A stretch of DNA of 64,000 nt from an uncultured Bacteroidia bacterium (GTDB lineage Bacteria > Bacteroidota > Bacteroidia > Bacteroidales > UBA932): the NCBI GenBank assembly GCA_902779785.1, contig CACZDC010000001.1, positions 292,632-356,631 on the forward strand. Reading direction: 5' to 3'. Positions within the stretch are counted from its first letter, which is position 1, and every line of letters begins with the position of its first letter. The position numbers and the translations under genes were made by a program. Shown here piece by piece: positions 17,956-45,534 of this stretch. The notes below the pieces were generated by a model. That model did not search any database, was not told the DNA's origin, and was given only the letters and a program-made list of their open reading frames with translations.

Positions 17956-19296
17956 ATGAGAATACATCCGATATACTCGTTTTTCCTCTCATTTGTTCTC
18001 CTCTCGTGTTCGGGAGGGCTGACGATGAGTTACTCCTCCGCCGACATATCCACGACTCCTGACGAGCACGTGGTGCTGGCGGGTTTTGCCGCCAGGGACA
18101 AACTCTCCGACGGGATTCACCAGCAGTTGTTTACGCATTGCCTGGTACTCGGTGACGGCAGCCGGAAAGTCTGCATCATATCGAACGACCTGATGGAGAT
18201 TTCTCCGGACATTTCCGACACCATCCGTACGATGATAGCCGAAAAGTCCGGCCTTGGAATCGACAATATCCTGATGCATAATATCCACACCCATTCGGCC
18301 CCCCGTTCCGGCGGGGCATCCAACTTCAGCGGCGGGACCAACCGCCCGTGGAAGGACAGGATGATTCCGACAGTGGTGAATAATGCCGTAAAGGCCATAA
18401 ACGCCAAAGGAAAGCCCTTCAAACTTGAAATCGGCAAGGCGACGACTTCCATCAACGGCAACCGCTGCGAAAAGGAAGGACCGGTGGATCACGACGTCTA
18501 TGTGGCCCGTTTCCTGCAGAAGGGAAAGCCGGTCGTGTCCATAGTGAATCTGGCCTGTCATCCGGTCTGTATGGGCCCTGGAAGCTATCTTCTGTCCTCG
18601 GACTATCCGGGAGTGAACGCACGATACCTCTCCCGGGCCTGGGGCGGGGAAGTCTTCCAGCTGACCGGCGCGGCGGGAAATATGGACCCGGCGAAAGGAC
18701 CTAAAAAGGTGGAATACGCCGAGGAGTGCGGAAAGTCTCTGGCTGACTCTTTGGTGAATATCCACTTTTCCAAAGTGCCTTCGAAGGGTCTTCTCCGTCT
18801 TGTCAACAGGACTGTGGACCTTCCCTACCAGATCGCTAACGTCACGCCGGAGGCCGTCTCCGCCCACGCCGACTCGCTCTCTGAGGCGGCGCGGACAGTG
18901 TTTCCTCGTTTCGCCGACGATGTAATGAACTGGAAATCAGAGATTCTCGCCCGCTTTGAAAAGGGACCGGTCGCATCTAAGCTTCGCTATCATCTTCACG
19001 GAGTGGATGTGGACGGGGTCATCTTCTTTTTCAGCGACGGAGAGCCATTCTGCGAATACCAGATGGAAACCCGGGCGGCTTTCCCGGACAGGACCATCTT
19101 CTTTGCGGGCTACACCAATGGACAGAACTCCTACCTTCCTTCCGAACACGCCTACGAAGTCCGCAAGGGCTATGAATACGAAATCGAGCAGATGCACGTC
19201 TATATCAAGGCGCCATATCCGCTTTCCGAAAGTATGCCTTCCACCTATCGCGAAGGCGTAATCGAGACCATCAGAGAAACAATCGAACAGGAATAA
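17956..19296 (+). CDS. neutral-ceramidase-like zinc amidase lipoprotein
   Basis: A 446-residue protein with a lipoprotein signal (FVLLSCSGG). It matches the N-terminal catalytic part of neutral/alkaline ceramidases: GFAARDKLSDGI, SNDLMEI, the metal-binding HTHSAP (about residue 111), NGNRCEKEG and NLACHPVCMG, then QLTGAAGNMDP. It lacks the C-terminal Ig-like domain of full ceramidases. The family cleaves amide bonds with a zinc ion, and many bacterial members are not true ceramidases. Here it is the first gene of an amino-sugar/cell-wall utilization locus and is followed directly (no gap) by a GH20 gene, so an amidase acting on cell-wall material is an attractive alternative to ceramide hydrolysis. 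Confidence 0.75.
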   Translation: MRIHPIYSFFLSFVLLSCSGGLTMSYSSADISTTPDEHVVLAGFAARDKLSDGIHQQLFTHCLVLGDGSRKVCIISNDLMEISPDISDTIRTMIAEKSGLGIDNILMHNIHTHSAPRSGGASNFSGGTNRPWKDRMIPTVVNNAVKAINAKGKPFKLEIGKATTSINGNRCEKEGPVDHDVYVARFLQKGKPVVSIVNLACHPVCMGPGSYLLSSDYPGVNARYLSRAWGGEVFQLTGAAGNMDPAKGPKKVEYAEECGKSLADSLVNIHFSKVPSKGLLRLVNRTVDLPYQIANVTPEAVSAHADSLSEAARTVFPRFADDVMNWKSEILARFEKGPVASKLRYHLHGVDVDGVIFFFSDGEPFCEYQMETRAAFPDRTIFFAGYTNGQNSYLPSEHAYEVRKGYEYEIEQMHVYIKAPYPLSESMPSTYREGVIETIRETIEQE

Positions 19297-21102
19297 ATGA
19301 AAAAGTTAATTGTCTTGTTATCAGGCCTTATGGCTGCTGTTTCGATGCTTGCGGCACCGAGATACAACATTGTCCCGACTCCGAAAAAACTCGTTGAGGC
19401 TCCGGGAGAATTCCAACTCAGCAAAAGCACCCGCCTCGTAGTGGAAGAAGCGGCTTTCAAGGAATTCGCCGATGACTTCAAGGCCCAGGTGAAACTCGCC
19501 ACCGGCTTTTCTCTCGAGGGCAAAGGCAATGCCATCCGCCTTGTCAAGCGTGACGGGCTAGGAAAAGAAGCCTACCGCCTGGTCGTTTCGCCGGAGAGCG
19601 TGACTATTGAAGCAACGGAATACAACGGAGCCTATTACGGACTTCAAACCCTCCTGCAGCTGCTCCCTGCCGAAATCTACAGCCCGGTGAAGGCCAAGGG
19701 AGTGAAGAAATGGACGGCTCCCTGCTGCACCATCGACGATGAGCCGGAGTTCTGGTACAGAGGTTTTCTCTTTGACAGCGGCCGTTTCTTCTTCCCGAAG
19801 GAAGAGCTGATGAAGTTCATCGACCTGATGGGTATGTACAAGCAGAATATGTTCCACTGGCATCTGACCGAAGACCAAGGCTGGAGAATCCAGATTGACA
19901 AGTATCCTCGCCTGACCGAGGTAGGTGCCTGGCGCAAGGAGACGGCCTGGCACAGCGGAATCGGCAACGGCATCCCCCACGGAGGATTCTACACCAAGGA
20001 CGATATCCGCGAGGTCGTGGAATATGCCCGCAAGCGCTGTGTGACAGTAATCCCCGAGGTCGAGATTCCCGGACACTGCACAGCTGCAATCACGGCATAC
20101 CCCGAACTCAGCTGCTTCCCCGACCGTCATTATGAGGTCGAGACCCACTGGGGCATCTGGAAGAACCTCTACGCCCCTACGGCCAAGACCTTCACCTTCC
20201 TGGAGGATGTGTTCACCGAACTTTTCGAGCTCTTCCCCTCGCCGATTTACCATATCGGCGGCGACGAGGCTCCGAAGGATGTCTATAAGGAAAGCCAGTA
20301 CTGCCAGGACCTGATGAAAGTCCTCGGCCTCGAGAGCGAGGAAGAGCTCCAGACTTTCTTCGTCAAGAGGATGGGAGACTTCCTCCGAAAGCACGGCAAG
20401 ACCATCATCGGCTGGGACGAAATCCTTGACGGAGGCGCCCTGGAAGACCCTATCGCTATGTCTTACCGTGGCCACGCTCCCGCAGCCCGCGGCATCCGGC
20501 GCGGCATCCGGGTTGTCCTTACGCCCAACCGCTGGTGCTATCTGGACAACCAGCAGCAGGACCAGGCCGACAATGTCGCGCAGGAGATTTTTATGCCTCT
20601 GAAGAAGGTCTATAACTACTATCCCGCCGTCGATTCCATTCCTGACCTCAGTAAAAAATACATCGTCGGATACGAGACCTGTCTGTGGACCGAATATATC
20701 TCGGACAACGCCAAGGCGGAATACCAGGCTTTCCCACGCAACGTCGCTGCGGCCGAAGTGGGATGGACATCCAGGCCCAACAAGGACTGGGAGTCCTTCA
20801 GGCAGAGGATGCCCAAGATACTCAAGAGCTTGGATTTGAAGAAGGTACAGTACTGCCCGGCCTATTACGACGTCATCTTCGACTATGACCGTCGCCTGGA
20901 CTTCCCGAAGCCTATGAACCTTCAGCTGGACGACCCTACAGGGGAAATCCATTATACTCTTGACGGCAGCACCCCTACCTTGAAGTCGCCGCGTTATGAC
21001 GGTACTCCGTTTACCGTGGACAAAGGCTCTGTGATCAAGGCAAGAGGTTTCCGGGGCGGCAAGCCTATCGGTAATGTAGTAACAAAAACCTTCTCGAAAT
21101 GA
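19297..21102 (+). CDS. GH20 beta-N-acetylhexosaminidase
   Basis: A 601-residue secreted glycosidase with a signal peptide (LIVLLSGLMAAVSMLAA). The order is a GH20b N-terminal domain (about 22-145), then a TIM barrel containing the catalytic Asp-Glu pair in HIGGDEAPK (about 318-323) and the product-site Trp motifs WDEILDGG and CLWTEYI. A C-terminal chitobiase-like domain ends it (IHYTLDGSTPTLKSP). GH20 enzymes release terminal beta-linked GlcNAc or GalNAc by substrate-assisted catalysis. It overlaps the next GH20 gene by four bases. The two paralogues are similar throughout and probably split the substrate between periplasm and outer membrane: this one has a cleavable signal, the next one a lipobox. 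Confidence 0.93.
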   Translation: MKKLIVLLSGLMAAVSMLAAPRYNIVPTPKKLVEAPGEFQLSKSTRLVVEEAAFKEFADDFKAQVKLATGFSLEGKGNAIRLVKRDGLGKEAYRLVVSPESVTIEATEYNGAYYGLQTLLQLLPAEIYSPVKAKGVKKWTAPCCTIDDEPEFWYRGFLFDSGRFFFPKEELMKFIDLMGMYKQNMFHWHLTEDQGWRIQIDKYPRLTEVGAWRKETAWHSGIGNGIPHGGFYTKDDIREVVEYARKRCVTVIPEVEIPGHCTAAITAYPELSCFPDRHYEVETHWGIWKNLYAPTAKTFTFLEDVFTELFELFPSPIYHIGGDEAPKDVYKESQYCQDLMKVLGLESEEELQTFFVKRMGDFLRKHGKTIIGWDEILDGGALEDPIAMSYRGHAPAARGIRRGIRVVLTPNRWCYLDNQQQDQADNVAQEIFMPLKKVYNYYPAVDSIPDLSKKYIVGYETCLWTEYISDNAKAEYQAFPRNVAAAEVGWTSRPNKDWESFRQRMPKILKSLDLKKVQYCPAYYDVIFDYDRRLDFPKPMNLQLDDPTGEIHYTLDGSTPTLKSPRYDGTPFTVDKGSVIKARGFRGGKPIGNVVTKTFSK

Positions 21103-22940
21103 AGCGCTTCCTCCTTGTCGCGATAAGTCTGGTCCTTGTCCTCGGCTGCAGCAAAAAGCCGATGGACAGGCCGATCGGCATCATTCCTCAACCCGCCTTC
21201 CTGCAGCAGGAGGAAGGAGTTTTCACCCTGGAGAAAACTACTCCCGTCTATGTGGACGCCGGCGATTCTTCGCTTCTTCGCACCATCGGCTTCCTTAATG
21301 AGAGACTGGAAAAGGCCGCGGGATTCAGCCTGAAAGTCATTCAGGATGATCCTCTGAGGCACGGGCAGGAAAAGGGCATATTCCTTCTCGATGCGGAGCT
21401 CTCGAAAGAGGCTTATAATCTTGAGATTACTCCCGGAAGGGTACTGATCGAATATGGCGACGGGGCAGGTGCATTCTATGCTGTCCAGACTATCCTGCAG
21501 CTGCTTCCGACGGAGATATTCGCCGAAAATCGTCAGAGGGGAGTCCGCTGGGAACTGCCTTGCTGCGCCATCGAGGACGCTCCCCGTTTCCCGTACCGCG
21601 GTATGCACCTTGACTGCTGCCTTCACTTTTTCAGCGTCGATTTCCTGAAAAAGTACATCGACGTTATGGCTCTCCACAAGGTCAACCGTTTCCACTGGCA
21701 CCTTACCGAGGACCAGGGCTGGAGACTGGAGATAAAGAAATACCCCCTTTTGACCGAAAAGGGCCAGTGGAGAAAAGAGACCGTGATAGGCTCGCTCTCC
21801 TCAGGCTTCTATGATGGAAAACCATACGGTGGCTACTACACCCAGGATGAGGTGCGCGAACTTGTAAGATATGCCTCGGAGCGTTATGTGACCATAATCC
21901 CGGAAATCGAACTGCCCGGTCACGCTCTCGCGGCCATCGCCTGTTATCCCGAACTGAGCTGCGGCCTCGAGGACCATTACGAGACTGCCACTCGCTGGGG
22001 TATTTTCAAACAGGTCTATTGCCCCAAGGAAGAGACATTCAAGTTCCTGGAAGATGTGTTCGACGAGGTCTTCGAGCTCTTCCCCACGGAACTGGTCCAT
22101 ATCGGAGGCGACGAGTGCCCTAAGGTCAGCTGGAAGAAATGTCCTCACTGTCAGTCGCTTATCAAAAAACTCGGGCTTAAGGATGAGTTTGAACTCCAGA
22201 GCTGGTTCATCCAGAGGATGGAGAAATACATCAATTCCAAAGGCCATCAGATCATCGGCTGGGACGAGATTCTCCAGGGCGGGCTGGCCCCGAATGCCAA
22301 GGTAATGTCCTGGCTTGGCGAGGAGGGCGGAATCAAGGCTGCGCAGCAGCACCACGAAGTGGTTATGGCTCCATATCCGAAGTATTATCTGGACTATTGG
22401 CAGGCCGACCCGGAAAGCGAGCCTCTCGCTATGGGCGGTCCCACGACGCTCCGTACTATGTACGAGTATAATCCTGTCCCTGAGGTGCTTACAAGTGATG
22501 AGCGCCGGTATATCATCGGGGTTGAGGGCTGCGTCTGGACCGAGTATATGCCTACTCCGGCTCGTGTCGAATATATGGCCTGGCCGCGTATGTGCGCCAT
22601 CGCCGAGGCGGGATGGAGCAAGGCCGACAAGGACTGGAACCGTTTCACGCGTTCGCTGGAGCTGCACCTTGGCAGGCTCGACAGGCTGGGCGTAGCTTAC
22701 TGCAAGGCCTTTTTCGACCCCTTCATCGAGCTTCACAAAGACACTGAGTACAGCAAGGTCGCGACCATCAGCGTGGACGCTCCCGGGGCTGAAATCCGTT
22801 ATACTCTTGACGGGAGCACCCCTACTGCGGAGTCCAGACTCTACGAAGGTCCCTTCGTGATCAATCGCCAGCAGAGGGTTACTGCGGCTGCTTTCCGTGA
22901 AGGAAAACGCATCGGAGATATAAAATATAAAATATTTTAA
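21099..22940 (+). CDS. GH20 beta-N-acetylhexosaminidase lipoprotein
   Basis: A 613-residue paralogue of the preceding gene, with a lipoprotein signal (LVLVLGCSKK). Catalytic Asp-Glu lie in HIGGDECPK (about 334-339). Substrate-site motifs are FHWHLTEDQGW, WDEILQGG and CVWTEYM. The chitobiase-type C-terminal domain reads IRYTLDGSTPTAES. Its ATG overlaps the upstream stop (ATGA). The lipid anchor suggests it faces the cell surface or the periplasmic side of the outer membrane. It would remove beta-linked GlcNAc from wall or glycan fragments. Confidence 0.93.
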   Translation: MKRFLLVAISLVLVLGCSKKPMDRPIGIIPQPAFLQQEEGVFTLEKTTPVYVDAGDSSLLRTIGFLNERLEKAAGFSLKVIQDDPLRHGQEKGIFLLDAELSKEAYNLEITPGRVLIEYGDGAGAFYAVQTILQLLPTEIFAENRQRGVRWELPCCAIEDAPRFPYRGMHLDCCLHFFSVDFLKKYIDVMALHKVNRFHWHLTEDQGWRLEIKKYPLLTEKGQWRKETVIGSLSSGFYDGKPYGGYYTQDEVRELVRYASERYVTIIPEIELPGHALAAIACYPELSCGLEDHYETATRWGIFKQVYCPKEETFKFLEDVFDEVFELFPTELVHIGGDECPKVSWKKCPHCQSLIKKLGLKDEFELQSWFIQRMEKYINSKGHQIIGWDEILQGGLAPNAKVMSWLGEEGGIKAAQQHHEVVMAPYPKYYLDYWQADPESEPLAMGGPTTLRTMYEYNPVPEVLTSDERRYIIGVEGCVWTEYMPTPARVEYMAWPRMCAIAEAGWSKADKDWNRFTRSLELHLGRLDRLGVAYCKAFFDPFIELHKDTEYSKVATISVDAPGAEIRYTLDGSTPTAESRLYEGPFVINRQQRVTAAAFREGKRIGDIKYKIF

Positions 22941-22957
22941 CTATTTTTGAAAAAATT

Positions 22958-23785
22958 ATGTCTGTAAGACTGACTGAACAACCGTCCCTTTACGACCACC
23001 TGGAGACCAAATCGGTGGCTGAACTCCTCAGGGACATTAACAACGAGGACAAGAAAGTCGCCCTCGCAATCGAGGCTGTGCTGCCTGATATTGAGAGACT
23101 TGTAAACGCGATAGAAAAGCAGATACGCGCGGGTGGACGCTTCTTCTGGCTCGGCGCAGGCACCGGCGGCAAGCTCGGCGTGCTGGACGTGCTCGAGGTT
23201 CCCAACACCTACGGAGTGGACCCGGAAATCTGGCAGGCGGTGCTCGCCGGCGGCAATGAGAATCTCGTCCTTGACCTCGAAGAGGCGGAGGATGACACCG
23301 AAGAAGGCTGGCGCACCCTCAGCGAGAAGCACCACGTCACTCCGAAAGACATCGTGGTGGGCATTTCAGCCAGCGGCTGCACGCCTTATGTGATGGCCGC
23401 TATGAAGGCCTGCAAGGAACACGGCATTCCCTGCGGAAGCATCTGCAACAATCCCGGCTCTCCCATCTCCGACTATGTCGATTATCCGATCGAGGTCGTT
23501 ATGGGCCCGGAATTCATCACCGGCTCCACCCGAATGAAATCCGGCACCTCCCAGAAGCTTCTCTGCGATATGATAAGCACGACTATGATGGTCCGTCTCG
23601 GCCGCGTCGAAGGAAACAGGATGGTCTGCGCAAACCTTATCAACAACAAGGTCATAGACCGCCTTACCCGTACAATGGTCGAGCGCCATCCTCAGCTCAC
23701 TTACGAGTTCTGCGAGGAAGTTATCAAAAAGACCGGCGGTCTCAAGAAAGCCGAGGCGTATCTTGAAAAAGAAGGCATTCTCTAA
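22958..23785 (+). CDS. murQ: MurQ-like N-acetylmuramic acid 6-phosphate etherase with altered sugar-phosphate loop
   Basis: A 275-residue cytoplasmic SIS-domain protein that aligns along its length with MurQ (LTEQPSLYDHLE, SVAELLRDINNEDKKV, GPEFITGSTRMKSGTSQK). MurQ removes the lactyl ether from MurNAc-6-phosphate to give GlcNAc-6-phosphate. The acidic catalytic positions appear kept (LEVPNTYGV and LEEAEDDTEE). Compared with typical MurQ, however, the loop GTSGRLG reads GTGGKLG, SECPPTFGV reads LEVPNTYGV, and SG(R/T)TPYV reads SGCTPYV. These changes fall in or near the phosphosugar site, so a related but different substrate is possible. It follows the GH20 genes by 17 bases. The symbol is given on family grounds. 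Confidence 0.75.
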   Translation: MSVRLTEQPSLYDHLETKSVAELLRDINNEDKKVALAIEAVLPDIERLVNAIEKQIRAGGRFFWLGAGTGGKLGVLDVLEVPNTYGVDPEIWQAVLAGGNENLVLDLEEAEDDTEEGWRTLSEKHHVTPKDIVVGISASGCTPYVMAAMKACKEHGIPCGSICNNPGSPISDYVDYPIEVVMGPEFITGSTRMKSGTSQKLLCDMISTTMMVRLGRVEGNRMVCANLINNKVIDRLTRTMVERHPQLTYEFCEEVIKKTGGLKKAEAYLEKEGIL

Positions 23786-23816
23786 GAAAATAATCCATTT
23801 CTTACATAGAAACACT

Positions 23817-26800
23817 ATGAAACTAATCCAAAAACTATTTTTGACCTTGACGGTGCTGGCATTTGCAGCTCTTTCTGCCTCTGCCCAGTCCCACAAGGTG
23901 TCGGGCGTCGTTTCCTCGACCACCGGGGAGAGCCTGATCGGAGCCGGCGTTATGGTGAAAGGCACCACGACAGGTGCGGTCACCGGCACTGACGGCTCCT
24001 ACTCGCTGCAGGTTCCCGATGGCGCCACGCTGGTGTTTTCCTGCATCGGTTACAATGATGCGGAATACGTGCCGGGGCCGAAAACAACTCTCAACGTTGT
24101 CCTTGAAGAGGACCAGAAAATTCTCGAAGAGGCTGTGGTAGTCGGTTACGGCGTCCAGAGCAAGGTCACCCTTACCGGCTCAGTCACATCGACTTCCGGA
24201 ACGGACCTTATCAAAAACTCTTCTGTCAACCTGTCCCAGGGCCTTGCAGGCCGTCTTTCAGGCGTTATCGTGAACAACCGTTCCGGCGAGCCCGGTAACG
24301 ACAACGCCACGATTTTCATCCGTGGCCGCAGCACGCTGGGAAACAACACACCCCTTATCATCATCGACGGTGTCCAGGGACGTGACGAAGATTTCTACCG
24401 CCTTTCCGGTGAGGAAATCGAGTCCGTCAACGTACTTAAGGACGTATCGGCCAACATTTACGGTGCACGTGCCGCAAACGGCGTTATCGTGGTCACGACA
24501 AAACGAGGCAAATTCAACAATGCCCCCAATGTCACCTTTACCTACGACCTCGGTCTCCAGCAGCCTACGCGCATAGTGCAGATGGCAGATGCGGCACTCT
24601 ATACCAAGGCCTACAACGCCGAACTCGCCATTACCAAGCGTAAACCTCAGTACACCGAGTCTGAAATTGCGGCATACGAGGATGGTTCGGATCCGATCAA
24701 TTATCCGAACACCAACTGGAGCAAGGAAGTGTTCAAGCCCATCTCTTCTCAGCATAAGTATGGCGTCTCCATTAACGGCGGCGGCCAGAGAGTCGCTTAT
24801 TTCGTGCAGCTCAACGGTCAGCTGCAGGACGGTATCTATAAGAACAGTTCCACGAACTTCAACCAGTTCAACGTCCGCAGCAACATCGATGTGAAGGTCA
24901 CCAACAACCTTACTCTCGGAACTGACCTCAACTTCCGCCAGCAACACCGTGACCGTTCTGCCTACGGCGAGGCCTCGGATATCTTCTATGCGCTGCTCAA
25001 GCTCAAACCCACCAGCGCGATGTACTATCCCAACGGGCTTCTCCGTGCAGGCGACTACAACCCGGCAGCCCTCGTTTCGGAGCTATGCGGTTACAACAAG
25101 ACCACTATCAACACCCAGACCCTGACCTTCAAGGCCGACTGGAAACTTGATTTCATCCTCAAGGGCCTGTCCGTCAACGCATCTTATGCCTATGACCTCG
25201 TCGGAAAGTTCAACAAGCTCTGGCAGACCCCCTGGGACTGCTACACCTATGACAAGGTCAAAGACGAGTACAGCCTGACCAAGTCCAAGTATTTTGCAAC
25301 TCCTACTCTGCGCGAGGCCGAGACGAATACCTCCCGCCAGAGCCTGAATGCCAACATCAACTTCGACAGGGAATTCGGCAATCACCATGTCACCGGCCTC
25401 GTTGGTTACGAGCAGTACTTCTATCACATGGACTATCTCCAGGCCGGCCGCGACAAATATGTTACCGACGCCCTTGACGAGCTCTTCGCCGGTGACGGAG
25501 ACAAGCAGAACTGGCGCACCAACGGCTATGCTTCCGAGAATGCCCGTATGTCCTTCTTCACCCGATGGAACTACGACTACAAGAGCAAGTACATGCTTTC
25601 GGCCATCCTCCGTTACGACGGAAGTGAGAACTTCAAGAAAGACAAGCGCTGGGGTCTGTTCCCGGGCGCGTCAATCGGCTGGAGAATCTCAGAGGAATCC
25701 TTCATCAAGGACAACCTCCCCTGGCTTACGAACCTGAAACTCCGCGCTTCTTACGGAACCCAGGGTAACGACAAGATCGACCCCTACCAGTACATGACGA
25801 CCTACAGCTTCTCCTCCTCCACGGTCTATCAGGGACTCTTCGACGGGAAGGAAGCCAGCTACATCGTTCCTGGAGCAATCCCCAACGAAAACGTCACCTG
25901 GGAAGTCGCCAATACCTACAATGTGGGTATCGACGGAAATATCTTCAACGGCCTCCTCGGATGGGAACTCGAAGGTTTCTACACTCACCGTAAGAACATT
26001 CTTTGCACCAAGCAGGCTTCAGTACCGTTCTTCACCGGTATGACAGGAACTCTTCCTGACGAGAATATCGGTGAGGTTTCCAACAAGGGTATAGAGTTCC
26101 AGCTCTTCCACGACAACCGTGTCGGAGACTTCATATACCACGTTCAGGGTAATTTCATGTGGGCGAAGAACACCATCCTCTTCATGGATGAAACTCCCTG
26201 GGGAGAAGGCCATGAGTATATGAACCAGACCGGACATCCTATGGGATCTTCACTCATTTACCCGATCATAGGTATCAACAAGACGGAAGAAGACCTCCAG
26301 AAATATACCCAGAAATCCGGTGCCGGACTCGGTGACTTTATCTACAAGGACACGGACAATGATGGGAAAATAACCGATTTGGACCGTGTCAGGACCGACC
26401 TCACCTCCGTTCCTCAGATAGTCTTCGGCCTGAGCGCCTCCGCTACCTGGAAGAATTTCGACTTCTCCATGCTGCTGCAGGGACAGGGCCTTGTACGCTG
26501 CTACTACGCTCCTTACAGCGATCCTCTGTCCAACAACGTCAACAAAGACGCAGCAGAACGTGCCTGGACTCTCGACAACCCCACCTCTGATTACCCGAGG
26601 CTCGGTACGACAGTCAGTAACGGCGGTGTCAACCGCGTTTCCTTCTATCACCGCAACGCGGCCTTCCTCCGTCTGAAGAATATTGAACTTGGCTATACGA
26701 TTCCCCAGAAGGTCTTCGGTTCGCTGAAGATTCCTGTAAAGGGACTGCGTTTCTATATCGGCGGCTTCAACCTGCTGACCATTTCCGGCCTGACGGAAAT

Positions 26801-36178: not shown

Positions 36179-36191
36179 AAACAAGAGCCTT

Positions 36192-37670: not shown

Positions 37671-38519
37671 ATGATACTTATCGCAGACAGCGGCGCGACG
37701 AAAACCCAGTGGGGCTGCGTGTCCCGTGACGGGAAAACCCGCATTGATTTTTTCAGCCAGGGCTACAACCCCAATTACATCAGCGGTCCCGACATTGTCG
37801 CCGACATTAGGGCGAACCTCCCGGAAGCGCTTGATCCTGAGAGCGTAAGCGAAATCTATTTCTACGGGGCAGGGGTTACGGAACTGCAGTATCCCTTTAT
37901 GGAAAAATGCCTCAGGGAGGTATTTACTAAGGCGGGCCGGGTGTTCATTGCTATGGACACCCTGGCTTCCTGCCGGGCCCTGCTTCAGGCAGAGCCGGGT
38001 TTTGCAGCCATACTTGGCACCGGGGCGAATTCCTGCCTCTACGACGGTTGCAACGAAGGGCTCAACGTGGATTCCTGCGGCTTCATCCTCGGCGATGAGG
38101 GCAGCGGCGGCAACCTCGGAAAGCGCTTGATTACGGATTATATCCGCCGCAATATGCCCCCGAAGGTCTATGAACTTGTCGGCCGCGAACTCGGCAGGAA
38201 CAATGACGAACTGCTCGACGTGATCTACACCAAGCCCTTCCCGAACCGCTTCTGCGCCCAGTATGCAAAGTTCATCAACGAGCACTTGGATTTCGACCCA
38301 TATTTTCCGAATCTCGTAACCGACGCCTTCCGTCAGTTCTTCCTGCTGATTGTCACGCATTATCCTGACTATCAGAAATATACCTTCAATGCGGTCGGTA
38401 GCGTAGCTTACTATTTCAGGCCGCTGCTGGAAAAGGTGGTTGAGGAATTCGGAATGAAGATGGGCACCATACTCAAGGCTCCGATGGACGGTCTTATCCG
38501 CTATCATCTTAATAATTAG
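37671..38519 (+). CDS. BadF/BadG-family ATPase, probable N-acetylhexosamine kinase
   Basis: A 282-residue ASKHA-fold kinase: phosphate-1 loop LIADSGATKTQWG at the N-terminus, adenosine/phosphate-2 motif LGTGANSCLYDG, and GFILGDEGSGGNLGK. Bacteroidota members of this family phosphorylate GlcNAc and relatives. It starts nine bases after the lipoprotein stop and is followed after four bases by a sugar permease, so import and phosphorylation are coupled. Candidate substrates here are GlcNAc released by the two GH20 enzymes, or MurNAc feeding the MurQ homologue. Confidence 0.82.
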   Translation: MILIADSGATKTQWGCVSRDGKTRIDFFSQGYNPNYISGPDIVADIRANLPEALDPESVSEIYFYGAGVTELQYPFMEKCLREVFTKAGRVFIAMDTLASCRALLQAEPGFAAILGTGANSCLYDGCNEGLNVDSCGFILGDEGSGGNLGKRLITDYIRRNMPPKVYELVGRELGRNNDELLDVIYTKPFPNRFCAQYAKFINEHLDFDPYFPNLVTDAFRQFFLLIVTHYPDYQKYTFNAVGSVAYYFRPLLEKVVEEFGMKMGTILKAPMDGLIRYHLNN

Positions 38520-38523
38520 GCTT

Positions 38524-39717
38524 ATGGGCAAGAACAAATATCTGGTCCCGCTCGCATTCATAGGGATGATGTTTTTCACCGTTGGTTTCGCCACCGGCAT
38601 CAACGGTTATTTCGTTCCCTTCCTGGAGAACAACCTGAACCTGACTTCGGCCCAGAGTTACCTTGTGATAGCCGCGACCTTCCTGGCCTTCCTGGTCTTC
38701 AGTTTCCCGGCCTCGACCATCATTCAGAAGATTGGATACAAACGGACTATGTCCATATCCTTCTTTCTCTTCGCCATAGCCTTCGCGCTCTTTATCCCGG
38801 CCGCCAGGCTGGAGAGTTTCAGCCTCTACCTGATCGCCTGCTTCCTCAGCGGAACAGCCAATACAGTGCTTCAGGCGGCCATAAATCCTTATGTGACCAT
38901 ACTCGGGCCCATTGACAGCGCGGCCCGGAGAATCAGCATAATGGGGATATGCAATTCCTGCGCGCTGGCTCTGCCTTCCGTATTCATCGCCGCGGTGACG
39001 AGAAAGCCTATCGAGGCGGTCGGCCTGACCGACCTGGACGCTCCGCTGTACATCATTATAGCGGTCGTGGCCATTCTTGGCATTGTCACCTTCTTCGCTC
39101 CTCTGGAGGAGATCAAGGCCGAAGGTGAGGAGAACGAGGAAGACTGCCCCTACGCCGCAGGCAAGAAGAGCTTATGGCAATTCCCCCATCTGGTACTCGG
39201 AGCCCTGGCGCTCTTCGTCTATGTGGGCGTGGAGAACCTGGCCCTGCTGACCGTGCTGGACTATGCCCAGGACCTCGGACTCCAGAATCCGGAGAAGTAC
39301 ACGGTATGGCCCGGCATTGGTATGGCGGCCGGATACATTGTCGGAATTATCTGTATCCCGAAGTACGTTTCGCAGGTCAAGGCGCTCAGGATCTGCACCT
39401 GGCTCGCTGTGGTGGACTCGGTACTCATCGTGCTGACCCCGCCTCAGGTGTCCGTCTGGTGCGTGGCTCTTTTGAGTTTCGCCTGCTCGCTGATGTATCC
39501 GGCAATATGGCCGCTGGCCATAGTGGATCTCGGAAAATTCACCAAGAAGGGCTCGTCGCTTCTGGTCGCGTCGATCGGCGGCGGCGCTCTGATCCCGCTG
39601 CTTTTCGGAGCTATGAAGGACTGGGCCGGAAGCCAGAATGCCTACTGGATCTGCCTGCCTTTCTACCTGCTGATAATGTACTATGCCTATTTCGGCTATA
39701 AGATTAGGAAAAAATGA
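38524..39717 (+). CDS. FHS-type MFS sugar permease (FucP/NagP-like)
   Basis: A 397-residue inner-membrane carrier with about 12 hydrophobic helices. The opening GFATGINGYFVPFLE, the helix-4 segment SGTANTVLQAAINPYVT and the size fit the fucose/hexose symporter branch of the MFS. NagP-type members import GlcNAc in Bacteroidota. The placement between an amino-sugar kinase and an amidase (4-base overlap with the latter) supports uptake of an amino sugar or a disaccharide. Confidence 0.85.
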   Translation: MGKNKYLVPLAFIGMMFFTVGFATGINGYFVPFLENNLNLTSAQSYLVIAATFLAFLVFSFPASTIIQKIGYKRTMSISFFLFAIAFALFIPAARLESFSLYLIACFLSGTANTVLQAAINPYVTILGPIDSAARRISIMGICNSCALALPSVFIAAVTRKPIEAVGLTDLDAPLYIIIAVVAILGIVTFFAPLEEIKAEGEENEEDCPYAAGKKSLWQFPHLVLGALALFVYVGVENLALLTVLDYAQDLGLQNPEKYTVWPGIGMAAGYIVGIICIPKYVSQVKALRICTWLAVVDSVLIVLTPPQVSVWCVALLSFACSLMYPAIWPLAIVDLGKFTKKGSSLLVASIGGGALIPLLFGAMKDWAGSQNAYWICLPFYLLIMYYAYFGYKIRKK

Positions 39718-40859
39718 AGCGGATCTGCCTGATATTGAGCCTGTTCTTTCTGCTGGGCGGAGCTGAGCTGATGGCCTGTACCACGGCGATTGTCTCGGCC
39801 GAAGCCTCCGCGAACGGACGTCCTATGATATGGAAACAGCGTGATGCCGGAAATATCCATAACTGCCTTCGCCACGTGAAAGGCCAGGTCTATGATTTCA
39901 CGGCAGTGTTCCCGGTCCGGAACAAGTCCGGGAAGTCGGCCTATGGCGGGATCAACAGTGCCGGCTTCGCCATTGCAAACAACCTTTCCTATAATCTGCC
40001 GGAGAACGATCCCGAAGAGGATGCTCGCAACGGGCTTTTTATGTACCTTGCCCTCGGGCAGTGCGAGAGCCTCGCCGATTTTGAGAAAATGCTGGAAAAC
40101 AGGCCGGATTCCATAAAGGTCAGTGCCAATTTCGCCGTCATCGACGCCTTTGGCGGAGCCGCGTATTTCGAGGCGGGGGAGAAGGGATGGAAGCGTTTCG
40201 ACGTTCCGAAAGGCGGTATTCTGTACCGGACGAATTTTTCCCTTTCCGGGAAGGAGAATGAGGGTGGCGGCTATGCTCGCTACGAGGCTATCTCCAAATT
40301 GATGAAAAAAGCCCCCAGGGGAGGCTACAAGGCGGAGTTTTTCCTTGATGTGTCGCGTTATTTCTATGACGGGATCAACGGAAAGGATGCCCTGAAGGGC
40401 CGCAGGGGCTATCTCTATGACAGGGATTTCATACCCCGCACCTCTTCCGCTTCATCCCTTGTGATAGAAGGCGTAAGCTCTTCCGACAGAGCGGATTCCG
40501 GGATGATGTGGTTCGTCGCCGGCTATCCTCCCTGCTGCTATGCTGTGGCGGTTTGGGTGGCCTCAGGGGAAATACTTCCTGCCTGCATCAGCGGAGACGC
40601 TCCGGCTAACGCCCTTGCCGTAGAACTTATGCATAGGGTCCATCCTTTCAAGTGGGAGGGGAGCGAGAACTTCCTTGAAATCAAGGCTTTGAAGGCTATC
40701 ACGCCAAAGGTCCGCAAGGCTGAGAAGACAGAACTTAAGCAGGCGCGGAAGTATGACGCCGTCTTCCGCAGCGAGGGCTTTGACCCCGCCGTCCTGCTCC
40801 GCTACAACGCCGAGGCCGACGGACGTTTCAACTCCTTTAAATCCAGCGTGTCAGAATGA
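39714..40859 (+). CDS. Ntn-hydrolase amidase (C45/linear amide hydrolase type)
   Basis: A 381-residue exported protein. The signal peptide ends ...GGAELMA and would be cleaved directly before Cys22 (CTTAIVSAE), exactly the N-terminal nucleophile needed by Ntn hydrolases; SANGRPMIWKQRD supplies the usual Arg/Asp pair. Similar to acyltransferase/C45 and choloylglycine-type hydrolases, which cut linear amides. Within this locus it could remove N-acyl groups or gamma-linked amino acids. It overlaps the permease upstream and the glutamate symporter downstream by four bases each. Confidence 0.78.
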   Translation: MKRICLILSLFFLLGGAELMACTTAIVSAEASANGRPMIWKQRDAGNIHNCLRHVKGQVYDFTAVFPVRNKSGKSAYGGINSAGFAIANNLSYNLPENDPEEDARNGLFMYLALGQCESLADFEKMLENRPDSIKVSANFAVIDAFGGAAYFEAGEKGWKRFDVPKGGILYRTNFSLSGKENEGGGYARYEAISKLMKKAPRGGYKAEFFLDVSRYFYDGINGKDALKGRRGYLYDRDFIPRTSSASSLVIEGVSSSDRADSGMMWFVAGYPPCCYAVAVWVASGEILPACISGDAPANALAVELMHRVHPFKWEGSENFLEIKALKAITPKVRKAEKTELKQARKYDAVFRSEGFDPAVLLRYNAEADGRFNSFKSSVSE

Positions 40860-42184
40860 GTTTTTCTCCTTGGACACTATTGATCGACGCCGGCATCATT
40901 TCAATCTTGCTGCTGGTCGGGAAACTCTTGCGCTCCAAGGTGAAAATTGTCCAGCGCTTTTTCATCCCCCCGAGCCTGCTCGCCGGATTCTTCGCCCTTA
41001 TTCTCGGTCCGGAGGTACTTGGCTGGCTTCCGCTTTCCTCCAATATGGGAACTTACGCCGGAATACTTATTGCTTTGGTATTCAGTTGTATACCCTTCAC
41101 TTCCGGCAGGGATGGAAGGAGCCGTGGAGAATCCCGCGTGGGTCGTATGTGGGCCTATTCCCAGGCCGGAATGTTACTCCAATGGGCGCTTGGCGGAGGC
41201 CTCGGAATTTGGCTTCTATGTCGTTTCTGGCCTCTTGACGAATCCTTCGGCCTCTCGATGCCGGCCGGCTTTTGCGGAGGCCACGGCACTGCGGCGGCGA
41301 TAGGCGAGTCTTTTGCGAATTATGGCGTCGAGCAGATGCAGTCCCTGGCGATGACTGCGGCGACCGTCGGCATTATAGCCTCGGTCGTGATGGGTATGTG
41401 GCTCATTTCCTGGGGAGCGGCAAAGGGTAAGACCTCCTTCCTATGTGCTTTTGATTCCCTTGCGCCTGAACTGAAGACAGGCATTCTTCCGAAGGATAAG
41501 CGCCAGAGTATGGGAATGGCTTCATTCTCAGCCATTTCGCTCGACTCTATGAGCTTTAATTTCGCGATAATTGCGATGACGGCCCTCGGAGGATACGGCC
41601 TAGCCAAAGGCATAGCCCATTTCTTCCCGGCCCTGATGCTTCCGGTGTTCAGCTGTGCCTTCATCGTGGGCTTGCTGCTGAAATGGATATTCGGAAAATT
41701 CACCATCGACGAGCATCTTTCCAAGCCTATAATCGGGCATTTCAGCGGTGCCTTCACCGACTATCTCGTCGCTTTCGGAGTGGCCTCCATCAAGCTTGAA
41801 ATCGTCGGCCGCTTTATAGTCCCCCTGTCCATACTTCTGGCCGTCGGCCTGCTGCTGACCCTTCTCTATGTGTTCTGGGTAGGGAGCCGCATCCACCGGA
41901 GCTATCCTTTTGAGAAGTCCATCTTTACCTGGGGCTGGTTCACCGGGACTATGGCTATGGGCATAGCCCTGCTCCGCATCACCGATCCTGACGGAAAGAG
42001 CGGCTGTCTGGACGATTATGCCTATGCATACCTTTATATTGCGCCCGTGGAGATTGCTCTGGTGAGCCTTTCGCCCTTGGTCTTCCACTATGGCTACGGC
42101 TGGCTTTTCGTCGCAATCTGCGCGGCGCTCGGGCTTGGTATCCTTGCCTTTGCGGCTATACGTGGATGGCTGAAAAAGAATTGA
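40856..42184 (+). CDS. gltS: GltS-like sodium/glutamate symporter
   Basis: A 442-residue membrane protein of about 10-12 helices with the ESS-family hallmark GFCGGHGTAAAIGE in the first half and the paired reentrant-loop region near IIGHFSGAFTDYLVAFGVAS in the second. GltS imports glutamate with sodium. It is translationally coupled to the amidase gene upstream. A glutamate carrier fits a locus that breaks down cell-wall peptides, because glutamate is a major constituent of both peptidoglycan and pseudomurein stems. Confidence 0.85.
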   Translation: MSFSPWTLLIDAGIISILLLVGKLLRSKVKIVQRFFIPPSLLAGFFALILGPEVLGWLPLSSNMGTYAGILIALVFSCIPFTSGRDGRSRGESRVGRMWAYSQAGMLLQWALGGGLGIWLLCRFWPLDESFGLSMPAGFCGGHGTAAAIGESFANYGVEQMQSLAMTAATVGIIASVVMGMWLISWGAAKGKTSFLCAFDSLAPELKTGILPKDKRQSMGMASFSAISLDSMSFNFAIIAMTALGGYGLAKGIAHFFPALMLPVFSCAFIVGLLLKWIFGKFTIDEHLSKPIIGHFSGAFTDYLVAFGVASIKLEIVGRFIVPLSILLAVGLLLTLLYVFWVGSRIHRSYPFEKSIFTWGWFTGTMAMGIALLRITDPDGKSGCLDDYAYAYLYIAPVEIALVSLSPLVFHYGYGWLFVAICAALGLGILAFAAIRGWLKKN

Positions 42185-42186
42185 TT

Positions 42187-44811
42187 ATGAAAAAAGTCCT
42201 CATACTGCTCTGCCTAGTTGCCTTTGTTCTCGCTCCGGCCCGTCCGAAAAAAAAGACGGACGAGGGCCTGCGCCATCTGGAAACGAGTTTCCATCTTTAC
42301 GACTCGCTCCAGAAAAACATCTTTCGTCTTGCCGAGACCGGTTACAAGGAATACAAAAGCGTGGAGCAATGGACGTCTTTTCTTGAGTCTCAGGGATTCA
42401 GCGTAGAGCGCGGGGTGGCGGGAATCCCGACGGCCTTCGTCGCGACCTATGGCAGCGGAGCCCCGGTAATCGGAATGATGGCCGAATACGATGCAATTAA
42501 GGGGATGTCGCAGGATACGGTCCCATATCCTAAAGTCCTTGTCGAGGGCGCTCCGGGGCACGCCTGCGGACATAATCTGCTCGGGACGGGTTCGGTGGCC
42601 GGAGCCGTGGCGGTTTCAAAATGGCTCGCTGCGGGGCATAAAGGCAGCGTAAAACTTTTCGGCTGCCCTGCCGAGGAGGGTGGCGGCGGAAAGGCATATA
42701 TGATGCGCGAGGGCGTTTTCGAGGGCCTTGACGCTATGCTGGACTGGCATCCCGACACTCGTAATACGGTCAACAAGACCTCCGGCCTGGCAAATGTCCA
42801 GGTCCGTTTCACCTTCCACGGAAAGTCCTCCCACGCCTCCGGCGCTCCAGATGCCGGACGCTCCGCCCTGGACGCTGTTGAGGCTTTCGACAATATGATG
42901 AACCTTATGCGGGAGCACGTCCCGCAGACTTCCCGTATCCATTATGTGATTACCGATGGCGGCAAAGCGCCGAATGTCGTCCCTGACAGGGCGAGCGTGA
43001 GGTATTTCTTCCGCAGTCCGTCCAGGACGGTGGTGAAAGATTTGCTTGGAAGGGCGCTGAAGGCCGCTGAAGGGGCTGCGATGGGCACGGGAACAACTAT
43101 GGAATATGAAATCCTTTCCGGCAATTACGAAAGGCTTCCCAACGAAGCTATGGCCTCGGTAGTATGGGACGCGCTCGGAAAGGTCGGCGGAATCCATCTG
43201 GACGAGCGTGAGATGGCTTTTGCCCGCGAAATGACGTCGGTCTCCGGAGTGGACGCCTCGCTAATAGACAAGCTGTCCATAGTCGTTCCTCCGGCTGAAG
43301 AGGGCTATGAGGCCTATGTCTCCAGCGATGTCGGAAACGTCACCTGGGCAGTGCCGACGGGCAGTTTCCGCTATGCCTGTTTTGTCCCGGGCGGTGTCGG
43401 CCACAGCTGGCAGCAGGTCTCCAGCGGCGGCACTACCATAGGCACGAAAGGCGCGATAGGTGCGGCGAAAGTCCTCTATCTTTCAGCCGTCGAACTGCTT
43501 GGAAAACCGGCGGTGCTTGAAAAGGTCCGTGCCGAGTTCCTGCAGCGCCGCGGACCGGACTTTGTTTTCGAGCCAATGATGGGCTCCCGCCGTCCGCCTT
43601 TCCTTCCGGCGGCTTCGCTCTCGCGGGAAATGCCCTCAGACATAGCTGTTTCCGGACTTTCTCTCCTTCCGGAAGGTTTGTCTTCGCTGGTCCCGCTTTC
43701 CCTGCCTCACGCCGATACTTGCGGGCTTGATGTCTTCCTTCCTTCCTCCTCCGTCGCGGACCAGGGAGAATCCGGCCGCTGCTGGTATTTCGCTACGGCC
43801 AATGTCCTTCGCGGCGAGCGGAGTTTCTCTGTGGTCTATCCCTATTTCTGGGATATGATGGAGAAGGCCAATCTTTTCCTCGTAAGGGCCTGGGAGCACC
43901 GGGGGGAAGCTTTGGACAGCCGTTACAACACGGCGCTTTTCCAGAGGCCGACCTGGGACGGCGGGCATATGGAGGGCGCTATCTATCTGATCAGGAAATA
44001 TGGTCTGGTACCTGCGGAAGTTATGCCCGAGACGGCCTCTTCACAGGACAGCGGGGCCTTGAGGACCGAGATTCGCAAACTGCTTCGTGCCTATGGACTT
44101 AAAATGCGGCAAAGCACTGAGCCTGAGGCGCTTCGGCGAGAGGCTCTGACGGATGTTTACCGTATTCTTGCCCAGACTCTGGGCACTCCGCCTTCCGAGT
44201 TTGAGGCCGAAGGGCGGCACTTCACCCCGGCGGCTTACCGGGATGCGGTCTTGCCGGACGGGCTGCTTGACGAGTTCGTAATGTTGATGAACGACCCGCG
44301 TCTGCCCTATGGCAAGATGTACAGGGTAGAGGGCTCGCGCTATGCTGCTGACGCTCCTGAATGGACCTTCCTCAATCTTTCGGTCGAGGATCTGGAGGCT
44401 CTTGGAGTGGCCTCGCTCAAGGGCGGTGAGCGTTTCTATTTCACCTGTGACACACTGCAGGACGCGCTTGCCGCGGAGGGCGTTTACGACTCTTCGCTTT
44501 TCCCTCTCGGGGAACTTCTTGGGGTCTCTGACGGGATGAGCAAGGCTGAGCGTTTCTCGAGCCGGGACCTCTCTTCGGCCCACGCTATGGCTATGGCCGG
44601 GGTTAAACTCTCCGGAGGGAAGGTCTCCAAATGGGTGGCGGAAAACAGTTTCGGTCTTTCGCGCGGTCAGGATGGCTATATAGAAATGAGCGCCGGATGG
44701 TGGGAGAATTATCTTTTCCGAATGGCTGTGCGCAGGTCATATCTGTCTTCCGCCCAGCTCCGTCTCCTGGACCAGACTCCGGAAGTCCTTCCCTGGTGGA
44801 ACCTGTATTGA
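42187..44811 (+). CDS. fusion of an M20 amidohydrolase and a C1-type (bleomycin-hydrolase-like) cysteine peptidase
   Basis: From the ATG at 42187 (signal peptide LILLCLVAFVLAPARP) the protein has 874 residues. Residues about 25-455 are an M20/AbgB-type metallo-amidohydrolase: MAEYDAIKG, HACGHN (125-130), EEGGGGK, WHPD, HGKSSHAS, HSWQQV. Residues about 480-874 are a papain-like C1B domain: DQGESGRCWYFA (nucleophile Cys at about 532), HAMAMAGV (His at about 799) and ENSFG (Asn at about 820), ending WWNLY. Both halves keep their catalytic residues. A frame break is excluded because the join is in one open frame. It would trim small peptides to amino acids in the periplasm, next to a glutamate importer. 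Confidence 0.85.
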   Translation: MKKVLILLCLVAFVLAPARPKKKTDEGLRHLETSFHLYDSLQKNIFRLAETGYKEYKSVEQWTSFLESQGFSVERGVAGIPTAFVATYGSGAPVIGMMAEYDAIKGMSQDTVPYPKVLVEGAPGHACGHNLLGTGSVAGAVAVSKWLAAGHKGSVKLFGCPAEEGGGGKAYMMREGVFEGLDAMLDWHPDTRNTVNKTSGLANVQVRFTFHGKSSHASGAPDAGRSALDAVEAFDNMMNLMREHVPQTSRIHYVITDGGKAPNVVPDRASVRYFFRSPSRTVVKDLLGRALKAAEGAAMGTGTTMEYEILSGNYERLPNEAMASVVWDALGKVGGIHLDEREMAFAREMTSVSGVDASLIDKLSIVVPPAEEGYEAYVSSDVGNVTWAVPTGSFRYACFVPGGVGHSWQQVSSGGTTIGTKGAIGAAKVLYLSAVELLGKPAVLEKVRAEFLQRRGPDFVFEPMMGSRRPPFLPAASLSREMPSDIAVSGLSLLPEGLSSLVPLSLPHADTCGLDVFLPSSSVADQGESGRCWYFATANVLRGERSFSVVYPYFWDMMEKANLFLVRAWEHRGEALDSRYNTALFQRPTWDGGHMEGAIYLIRKYGLVPAEVMPETASSQDSGALRTEIRKLLRAYGLKMRQSTEPEALRREALTDVYRILAQTLGTPPSEFEAEGRHFTPAAYRDAVLPDGLLDEFVMLMNDPRLPYGKMYRVEGSRYAADAPEWTFLNLSVEDLEALGVASLKGGERFYFTCDTLQDALAAEGVYDSSLFPLGELLGVSDGMSKAERFSSRDLSSAHAMAMAGVKLSGGKVSKWVAENSFGLSRGQDGYIEMSAGWWENYLFRMAVRRSYLSSAQLRLLDQTPEVLPWWNLY

Positions 44812-44817
44812 GCCGAT

Positions 44818-45534
44818 ATGAAACGATGTCTGTTGCTCGTCTTTCTCTTTTTTCCGCTTCTCTTGCAAGCCGGCAGGCCGGGAGTGACGGTGGACGGCTC
44901 GCTCTTGTTCTCATCGGCCTATCTCTGGAGGGGCGAAAAGGTCTGCGGGCTGCATTTCAATCCAGATGTTGCGCTTCATCTTGGCAATCTGACCCTGGAG
45001 AATTATTCCTTCCTGGCTTGCGACGGCTCCTACAAGGAGATAGACTTTGACCTTTCATACAGACTCGGAGATTTCACTTTCCACCTGGCCGATTACTATT
45101 TCCATTATTCCGATCCGGACAAGTCGGAGAACTATTTTGACTGGAAGAGGGGCTCGGAGCATTGCGATGAGATTGCCCTTTGTTATGACAGTTCCGCTAT
45201 TCCGCTGAATGTCAAGTGGTTCACTTTCTTCTGGGGGCAGTGGATACCCGACGAGGAGGGAAGGCCCGGTCGGCTGTCGTTTTCGTCCTATTTGGAGGTG
45301 GAAACCTATTTGGAACTGCAGAATCTTGGCCGTCTTTCACTCAATCTCGGTGCCAGCGTCCTGAAGGGGCCCTACACCGGTTTTTCGAAGGATTTTATGC
45401 CCATCCACATCGCGCTCGGCTACTCCCGCGGTTTCGACGTGGGCGGTTTTTCGGTTCCCATTCGGAGCACCGTCGTCTTCAATCCCTATCTTCGGACCTG
45501 TATGGCGGAAGCCGCTCTCGGTCTCCGCTTCTGA
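44818..45534 (+). CDS. small outer-membrane beta-barrel protein, unknown
   Basis: A 238-residue protein with a signal peptide (LLVFLFFPLLLQA) and amphipathic strands throughout (DGSLLFSSAYLWRG, LHLGNLTLENYSF, FHLADYYFHYSD), ending in a barrel-closing LGLRF. The YLWRG start and length resemble TorF-like putative porins. It is the last gene of the plus-strand run that begins at 17956, six bases after the peptidase fusion. A porin for small products is possible. Confidence 0.65.
   Translation: MKRCLLLVFLFFPLLLQAGRPGVTVDGSLLFSSAYLWRGEKVCGLHFNPDVALHLGNLTLENYSFLACDGSYKEIDFDLSYRLGDFTFHLADYYFHYSDPDKSENYFDWKRGSEHCDEIALCYDSSAIPLNVKWFTFFWGQWIPDEEGRPGRLSFSSYLEVETYLELQNLGRLSLNLGASVLKGPYTGFSKDFMPIHIALGYSRGFDVGGFSVPIRSTVVFNPYLRTCMAEAALGLRF

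Follow-up and report, generated by a model that had tools for sequence, protein, structure and literature searches.

A candidate pseudomurein utilization locus with methanogen-type peptidase and TIM-barrel genes in an uncultured Bacteroidales bacterium

We analysed a window of 64,000 nucleotides from an uncultured Bacteroidales bacterium (bases 292632-356631 of contig 1 in an assembly of 2.78 Mb and 126 contigs, 95% complete and 4.8% contaminated), and within it a gene cluster at positions 17956-45534. This cluster is probably a utilization locus of SusC/D type whose substrate is Methanobacteriales pseudomurein. It carries a transglutaminase-fold peptidase and TIM-barrel proteins of probable methanogen or virus ancestry. 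The locus appears built for digesting methanogen cell walls because its key enzymes are related to proteins of methanogens and their viruses. The first-pass annotation had proposed such a role from the peptidase, the barrels and a domain shared by two lipoproteins. That idea is partly supported: well for the peptidase and the barrels, not for the shared lipoprotein domain, and with feeding on methanogen walls as a deduction from these relationships. The proposed mechanism draws on homology, gene fusion, co-occurrence, synteny and predicted fold. What is new is a SusC/D utilization locus that carries methanogen-type enzymes.

The genes on which the argument turns are the following, where PMBR stands for pseudomurein-binding repeat.

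28992-30164, + strand: lipoprotein with the shared domain (29382-30161; profile and alignment A2)
30236-31597, + strand: transglutaminase-fold peptidase P0008, of Drs3/methanogen type (Transglut_core 4.2e-21), comprising a BACON domain, a region aligned with PMBR-like repeats of orthologues, and a catalytic domain at ~31169-31594
31604-33706, + strand: LTD domains (PF00932 2.1e-18) and TIM barrel (32876-33703; PF13200 5.1e-11; placed in the barrel tree)
33706-35136, + strand, GTG start: LTD-like region (under cut-off) and TIM barrel (34318-35133; PF13200 6.8e-14)
35133-36035, + strand: stand-alone TIM barrel P0011, a lipoprotein by eye (PF13200 1.7e-7)
36159-37661, + strand: second lipoprotein with the shared domain (36975-37658; profile and alignment A2)

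Family calls here and below come from Pfam and NCBIfam profile searches, and lipoprotein status was judged by eye from signal peptides.

The peptidase is related to proteins of methanogens and their viruses

Among 50,697 phage records P0008 has eight matches, led by the PMBR/transglutaminase protein of Methanobacterium virus Drs3 (AXN53416.1; 41% over 142 aa, 2e-21), with which it shares the same catalytic triad and a co-linear N-terminal region. The Drs3 protein has three PMBR matches (2.7e-17 in all), whereas P0008 has a BACON domain instead, and is set in a SusC/D locus. P0008 also has matches in 132 of the 138 genomes of a single methanogen family, that of an uncultured Methanobacteriaceae archaeon (G151), each at 5e-19 or better and the best at 3e-38 with 43% identity.

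In an alignment of P0008, four Bacteroidales orthologues and the Drs3 protein, 43 columns are invariant, including C373, C374, H409 and D424. The Cys-His-Asp triad of P0008 (C373, H409 and D424) is invariant in all six sequences, and the nucleophile is likely the first cysteine of the NCC motif, judging from alignment with 3isr and PeiP. Both the intact triad and the relationship to methanogen and methanophage proteins are thereby borne out. PeiW and PeiP (MEROPS C71, PF12386), which are of the same Cys-His-Asp type, cut Ala-epsilon-Lys bonds and use a transglutaminase triad according to the available part of PMC4592898, so that isopeptide hydrolysis may be expected of P0008 as well.

A tree of 106 peptidase domains places all 41 distinct Bacteroidales rows in one clade, with a support of 92 in the Shimodaira-Hasegawa-like approximate likelihood ratio test (SH-aLRT). 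The rows were reduced from 120 by removing domains shorter than 86 residues, all but the best domain per open reading frame (ORF), and identical rows. Together with methanogen, virus, Clostridia and Omnitrophota rows they lie on one side of a branch (support 84), with four generic transglutaminases, the only such sequences included, on the other, in a tree of 143 columns whose deep forks are weak. By catalytic-domain homology and by its side of that branch, P0008 belongs with the PMBR-transglutaminase proteins of Drs3 and methanogens. The first-pass annotation had named an ordinary bacterial transglutaminase-like family as the placement that would speak against it; P0008 instead groups with the methanogen and virus rows, apart from the generic sequences.

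The TIM barrels have methanogen counterparts

P0011 matches 122 of the 138 methanogen-family genomes at E<=0.001, the best at 9e-58, which upholds the proposed kinship of the barrels with methanogen proteins. In the barrel tree, which was midpoint-rooted for drawing only and from which domains shorter than 181 residues and identical rows had been removed, the 76 Bacteroidales barrels fall in a single clade apart from the 61 methanogen barrels (support 99). Among profile families, DUF4015 passes its cut-off, GH18 and GHL10 stay under theirs, no characterised glycoside hydrolase (GH) family is matched above threshold, and no CAZy family could be assigned. Barrel P0010 matched nothing among the phage records at E<=0.01.

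The barrel was modelled with a predicted local distance difference test score (pLDDT) of 90.8, and its nearest PDB folds in Foldseek are those of Cwp19, SleL, PgaB and GH191 (6e-9 to 4e-7), yet at 11-14% identity and with many other TIM barrels matching as well. The catalytic face of a TIM barrel usually lies at the C-terminal ends of its strands. Residues D130, E180, Y206, Y243 and R279, conserved in both Bacteroidales and methanogen barrels, are modelled at a strand end or at most three residues after it; W29, H81, W83, H128 and W237, likewise conserved in both groups, are modelled inside strands. D130 and E180 may be the catalytic acids.

Methanogens fuse barrel, repeat and peptidase in one protein

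Single methanogen proteins of up to ~1,340 aa combine the barrel, PMBR repeats and the peptidase. Across 80 loci, 30 of the 98 ORFs carrying any of the three profiles are such fusions; they represent 25 distinct genes in 25 genomes, five being second fetches of the same gene. How a locus was obtained bears on the count: fusions were found in 15 of 15 loci where both hits had seemed to lie in one frame, in 15 of 60 not chosen for fusion, many of whose ORFs are cut by the fetched stretch, and in none of five otherwise obtained. One fusion protein matches PF09373 at 7e-33, Transglut_core at 6.5e-24 and DUF4015 at 6.5e-10. No other evidence links barrel, repeat and peptidase as strongly to a shared substrate; the fusion ties both enzymes to pseudomurein and goes beyond what the first-pass annotation foresaw. 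In these methanogen proteins, some of them adhesin-like proteins of transglutaminase type, both catalytic-type domains share one polypeptide, whereas in Bacteroidales they are encoded by separate genes. In the available text of PMC11532034, transglutaminase-type proteins are described as having PMBR, and for M. smithii one putative glycosyl hydrolase domain is mentioned; that text does not describe the three-part fusion.

PMBR-like repeats also occur on the bacterial side. A local PMBR profile, built from 149 repeats in 44 methanogen and virus ORFs, selects 22 of 2103 non-methanogen ORFs at E<=1e-3, namely 19 Bacteroidales peptidase orthologues and three proteins of one Clostridia metagenome-assembled genome (MAG). 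Many Bacteroidales peptidases thus carry degenerate PMBR-like repeats, which sit in the N-terminal part and lie under the Pfam threshold; PF09373 was matched neither by P0008 nor by four orthologues. In a draw of 120 genomes from the methanogen phylum, PMBR was present in 117 and the barrel in 108 (E<=1e-8). With hardly any PMBR-free genome, the repeat cannot serve as a negative control within that phylum. Three genomes of this draw (G279, G280 and G281) have the barrel and no PMBR match.

The Clostridia MAG, which comes from goat colon, encodes two transglutaminase proteins, 708 and 830 aa long, whose PMBR repeats match PF09373 strongly (6e-32 and 4e-41), and a further PMBR protein of 512 aa (L069 8699-10825 and 11937-13475; L070 860-3352). 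Around them are typical bacterial genes (GH77, phosphorylase, MreB, Fe hydrogenase), and GC content is even. The MAG represents another bacterial lineage with wall proteins of methanogen type.

Peptidase and barrel travel together in a small set of Bacteroidales

In a sample of 149 genomes of the Bacteroidales family, the peptidase (E<=2e-40) occurs in five and the barrel (E<=1e-10) in six, with five genomes common to both. A hand-computed probability for this co-occurrence, C(6,5)/C(149,5), is ~1e-8, the genomes not being independent. In an order-wide sample of 393 Bacteroidales genomes from 206 genera, each was found in the window's own genome only (E<=1e-15 and 1e-18).

A peptidase-motif scan of 84,980 genomes gave 50 loci: 43 in Bacteroidales or Bacteroidia (33 labelled Bacteroidales or a genus of it, 10 labelled Bacteroidia), four in Methanosphaera/Methanobacteriaceae, two on the Clostridia MAG and one in Omnitrophota. 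The 43 include two on one contig (L033 and L046) and four contigs of family genomes (L027, L034, L065 and L068, of G096, G118, G114 and G107, respectively). Among them the barrel is present in 40, the shared lipoprotein domain in 39, the kinase in 37, the major facilitator superfamily (MFS) permease in 35, MurQ and GH20b in 31 each, GH20a in 30, the C45-like gene in 28, the symporter in 25, the M20-C1 gene in 23, SusD in 11, the ceramidase-like gene in nine and SusC in four. These counts are lower bounds, since no locus extends beyond 10 kb on either side and contig edges truncate many. Peptidase, barrel and shared domain occur together in 38 of the 43, and the genes of the locus are clustered more than chance would give.

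Median identity to the window across these loci, from matches covering at least 60% of the window protein, is 88% for MurQ, 82% for the kinase and 90% for the MFS permease, against 36% for the peptidase. Fast divergence of the wall-facing part would fit varied wall targets; relaxed constraint would look alike. Fifteen of the 43 record titles name a herbivore (goat, yak, reindeer, horse, water buffalo or water deer), and one names Candidatus Cryptobacteroides intestinipullorum. The two loci on one contig (JAFRSW010000022.1), from a goat omasum MAG, lie ~17 kb apart. The Omnitrophota locus (L073 9998-10867) holds an ORF with two transglutaminase domains of the family of P0008.

Remaining genes of the locus

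The 27.6-kb stretch holds 18 ORFs, all on the + strand with their ends confirmed, and neighbouring ORFs overlap or lie at most ~125 bases apart. The family searches agree with the functions initially listed for this same-direction cluster. Besides those given above, the genes are:

17956-19296, + strand: neutral-ceramidase-like hydrolase (PF04734 9.7e-11)
19297-21102, + strand: GH20 beta-hexosaminidase (PF00728 7e-105)
21099-22940, + strand: GH20 beta-hexosaminidase (PF00728 1.5e-120)
22958-23785, + strand: MurQ-like SIS protein, a divergent paralogue
23817-26885, + strand: SusC-type TonB-dependent transporter (ORF from TTG 23763, likely start 23817; PF07715 Plug 1.2e-14, CarbopepD_reg_2 5.3e-15)
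26898-28931, + strand: SusD-like lipoprotein (PF07980 1.1e-44)
37671-38519, + strand: N-acetylglucosamine/N-acetylmuramic acid (GlcNAc/MurNAc)-type kinase (PDB 1zbs, 8oqk and 8ow9 at E<=2.2e-53; no Pfam family at 0.001)
38524-39717, + strand: NagP-like MFS amino-sugar permease (NF046060 274 bits, under the cut-off of 625; TIGR01272 gluP passed, 208.6 vs 202.55)
39714-40859, + strand: C45-like N-terminal nucleophile (Ntn) hydrolase (NF040521 8.8e-12, under cut-off)
40856-42184, + strand: sodium/glutamate symporter (PF03616 1e-15)
42166-44811, + strand: M20 amidohydrolase fused to a C1 (bleomycin-hydrolase-like) peptidase (TIGR01891 3.6e-67; PF03051 2e-74)
44818-45534, + strand: protein with a signal peptide by eye and no family match in Pfam or NCBIfam searches

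A SusC/SusD pair with linked degradative enzymes, the hallmark of a polysaccharide utilization locus, is present in the window, and SusC/SusD also occur in the loci of G107, G118, G114 and G096. In its SusC/D pair, GH20 enzymes, peptidases, kinase, transporters and single direction the locus resembles Bacteroidetes polysaccharide utilization loci; unlike them, it has a peptidase and barrels of methanogen type.

The amino-sugar cassette and the murein and mucin alternatives

MurQ had been singled out as pointing to bacterial peptidoglycan, and here the outcome is ambiguous. The window protein scores 238.7 against the TIGR00274 equivalog, under its cut-off of 302, and passes the PRK05441 subfamily (288 vs 168 bits). 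At another site in the genome (G000:C43) there is a further MurQ-like copy with 43% identity. The window protein retains both glutamates that we take to be catalytic in MurQ. The nearest solved proteins of the kinase include some named GlcNAc kinase and one named putative novel MurNAc kinase.

Such genes suggest that the locus could instead scavenge bacterial murein: the GH20 enzymes and barrels would free GlcNAc and MurNAc, the MFS permease and kinase would take them up, MurQ would open MurNAc-6-phosphate and the transglutaminase-fold enzyme would trim murein peptides. The MurNAc/GlcNAc-type kinase, the NagP-like permease and the retained glutamates speak for this, as does the resemblance of the barrel fold to Cwp19 and SleL, which reportedly act on murein; the trio of MurQ, kinase and MFS is also said to resemble a Tannerella murein set. 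Against this, Pfam searches of all 18 proteins gave no murein amidase, NlpC/P60, lysozyme or LD-carboxypeptidase family, a second MurQ-like gene is available elsewhere in the genome, and locus-type MurQ also occurs in loci that have no peptidase. Moreover, relatives of the peptidase and barrel are widespread in methanogens, which to our knowledge have no murein, and are absent from 392 of the 393 sampled Bacteroidales-order genomes at the thresholds used. We judge murein scavenging unlikely.

Locus-type MurQ (>=60%) is found in 10 of the 149 family genomes, five of which also have peptidase and barrel; the other five (G003, G034, G052, G067 and G140) lack the peptidase. The peptidase-free loci hold GH20 together with, variously, ceramidase-like, kinase, MFS, C45-like or M20-C1 genes. 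MurQ thus belongs to an amino-sugar cassette that exists without methanogen-type genes, and this peptidase-free cassette would be the older state. Three of these loci, all from one other genus (L145, L147 and L143, of G034, G067 and G052, respectively), have a GH20 region in an ORF of ~1530 aa, a MurQ-like gene and a C45- or M20-C1-like gene, with no peptidase or barrel.

GH20 enzymes are common in mucin loci, and the existence of loci with GH20, MurQ-like, kinase or MFS genes, some also with a ceramidase-like gene, in the absence of methanogen-type genes would also fit a locus for host mucin or dietary amino sugars in which the transglutaminase-fold and barrel proteins act on glycoproteins. 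We consider this very unlikely, as it leaves unexplained why the peptidase and barrel are so close to methanogen proteins and are fused with PMBR there.

Points against pseudomurein utilization

Several observations weigh against assigning the locus to pseudomurein. For the peptidase, PF12386, the Pfam model of C71, gave no match to P0008 at E<=1, and blastp against PeiW and PeiP found nothing significant. Aligned by profile, P0008 and PeiP run co-linear through repeats and catalytic domain, yet the match is weak (E 2e-4, probability 45%). Scans of viral contigs with P0008 and A1 yielded one and 10 pattern hits, respectively, with no relative confirmed. P0008 also has no PMBR match at E<=1, by Pfam or by the local profile, and only aligns with the repeat region of its orthologues. 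For the barrel, fold matches are unspecific (638 PDB chains at E<=0.001, best TM-scores ~0.5-0.66), so the fold indicates a TIM-barrel glycan hydrolase, not one given family. In distribution, a sixth family genome (G140) has the barrel without the peptidase, and three of the 43 loci have no barrel hit (L027, L057 and L058): the genome of L027 (G096) has a barrel on another contig, L057 has a fragmentary match (2.5e-7) far downstream, and L058 has none.

The cassette adds to these points: both glutamates being kept, the MurQ-like protein may have MurNAc-6-phosphate etherase activity and hence allow some use of bacterial murein, and together with the GlcNAc/MurNAc-type kinase and the NagP-like permease it also fits murein salvage. 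N-acetyltalosaminuronic acid has neither a lactyl ether nor a free 6-OH, which leaves MurQ without an obvious job on it. The shared domain brings no methanogen link, with only four hits in 137 methanogen genomes (E 0.04-0.09). Finally, in the available parts of PMC12352652, PMC11915815, PMC12596118, PMC2812497, PMC4592898 and PMC11532034 no activity is reported for a Drs3-type peptidase or for this barrel.

Two assignments were given up. Strict C71 membership of P0008 was dropped on the PF12386 and blastp results, which make it a Drs3-type relative of C71 and not a member by the Pfam rule; the Drs3 protein itself scores 20.7 bits against PF12386, under the cut-off of 22. A PMBR in the window's own peptidase was sought with Pfam and the local profile and not found by either.

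In G140, the lone barrel gene (L151 3541-4482, G140:C35) adjoins an ABC transporter, and no peptidase match rises above the generic level in that genome; its GH20/MurQ-like/kinase/MFS locus lies on a different contig from the barrel.

The shared lipoprotein domain and the contact alternative

The two lipoproteins do share one domain, of ~230 aa by profile and alignment, which occurs in several tandem copies in lipoproteins of 1.2-1.7 thousand residues from other Bacteroidales. Its proposed kinship with PF09373 and methanogen proteins is not supported. The hhalign score against PF09373 is 12.4, inside the range of 100 column-shuffled controls (maximum 16.9), and no meaningful score was obtained in the methanogen genomes. 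The domain of the second lipoprotein was modelled confidently (pLDDT 89, predicted TM-score 0.90), and Foldseek returned no match at E<=0.001 in PDB (PeiP, 8z4f, included) or BFVD, so it may be a new fold. An origin from PMBR had been considered from a by-eye likeness (helix, P, beta-hairpin, helix) and was rejected on the shuffled-range score, the lack of meaningful scores in methanogen genomes and the missing fold match. In the phage records, the lipoprotein P0012 has one hit, at residues 50-256, outside the shared domain.

Tandem-domain lipoproteins in relatives, together with the transglutaminase fold, raise the possibility of contact rather than feeding, whereby the transglutaminase-fold lipoprotein would cross-link or anchor the bacterium to a methanogen, with hydrogen transfer as one conceivable purpose. 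A cross-linking role of transglutaminases in pseudomurein has been proposed (available part of PMC2812497). Contact is nevertheless highly improbable, given that a catabolic set of GH20 enzymes, kinase, permease, symporter and peptidases accompanies the transglutaminase-fold gene, with SusC/D wherever the fetched stretch is long enough.

Proposed mechanism and ancestry

For pseudomurein utilization we propose the following route. The shared-domain lipoproteins may hold wall material, as their position and the tandem repetition in relatives suggest. The peptidase would hydrolyse isopeptide cross-links, much as PeiW and PeiP do at Ala-epsilon-Lys, and the TIM barrels would cut the beta-1,3 amino-sugar backbone, a role suggested by fold, conserved residues and the methanogen fusion with PMBR and peptidase. 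Fragments would then be imported through SusC/D. The GH20 enzymes would take off GlcNAc or N-acetylgalactosamine (GalNAc), the latter being present in M. ruminantium pseudomurein according to the available text of PMC2812497, and the C45-like and M20-C1 enzymes would trim peptides. Glutamate would enter via the symporter, and the amino sugar via the NagP-like permease and then the kinase. Walls of dead and of live methanogens are both compatible as the food source.

Methanogens or their viruses are the probable source of the peptidase and barrel genes, which would have been joined to an amino-sugar cassette (GH20, MurQ-like, kinase, MFS) that is also found in their absence. This direction of transfer rests on distribution (132 of 138 genomes vs five of 149) and not on rooting, because the peptidase tree has few columns and weak deep forks.

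A bolder version, which we offer tentatively and hold to be doubtful, is that Bacteroidales of the gut graze on methanogens or prey on them, using lysis enzymes of archaeal or archaeal-virus descent encoded in a bacterial locus dedicated to the walls of archaea, that the barrel founds a GH family for the pseudomurein glycan strand, and that the diverged MurQ uses C3 beta-elimination on 3-O-glycosylated amino-sugar phosphates from the beta-1,3 backbone, not on lactyl ethers. The beta-elimination step in particular is speculation.

If pseudomurein utilization is correct, methanogens would be a food source or prey for bacteria of the same habitat. This trophic link is without a report among the matches listed: in the open-licence PMC literature (bioRxiv excluded), titles and abstract starts gave no report of pseudomurein use by Bacteroidales. 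The locus would also supply candidate enzymes for degrading the wall and, indicated by both Bacteroidales gene order and methanogen fusions, one for the pseudomurein glycan strand; this would bear on curbing methane in ruminants and on breaking open methanogen cells in DNA work. The locus would further suggest archaeal-type genes at work within a SusC/D-type locus.

Flanking genes

Upstream, near the start of the locus and on the opposite strand, lies a DeoR-type gene (15649-16431, - strand), a candidate regulator. A phosphomannose-isomerase-like gene (45600-46580) lies in the downstream flank.

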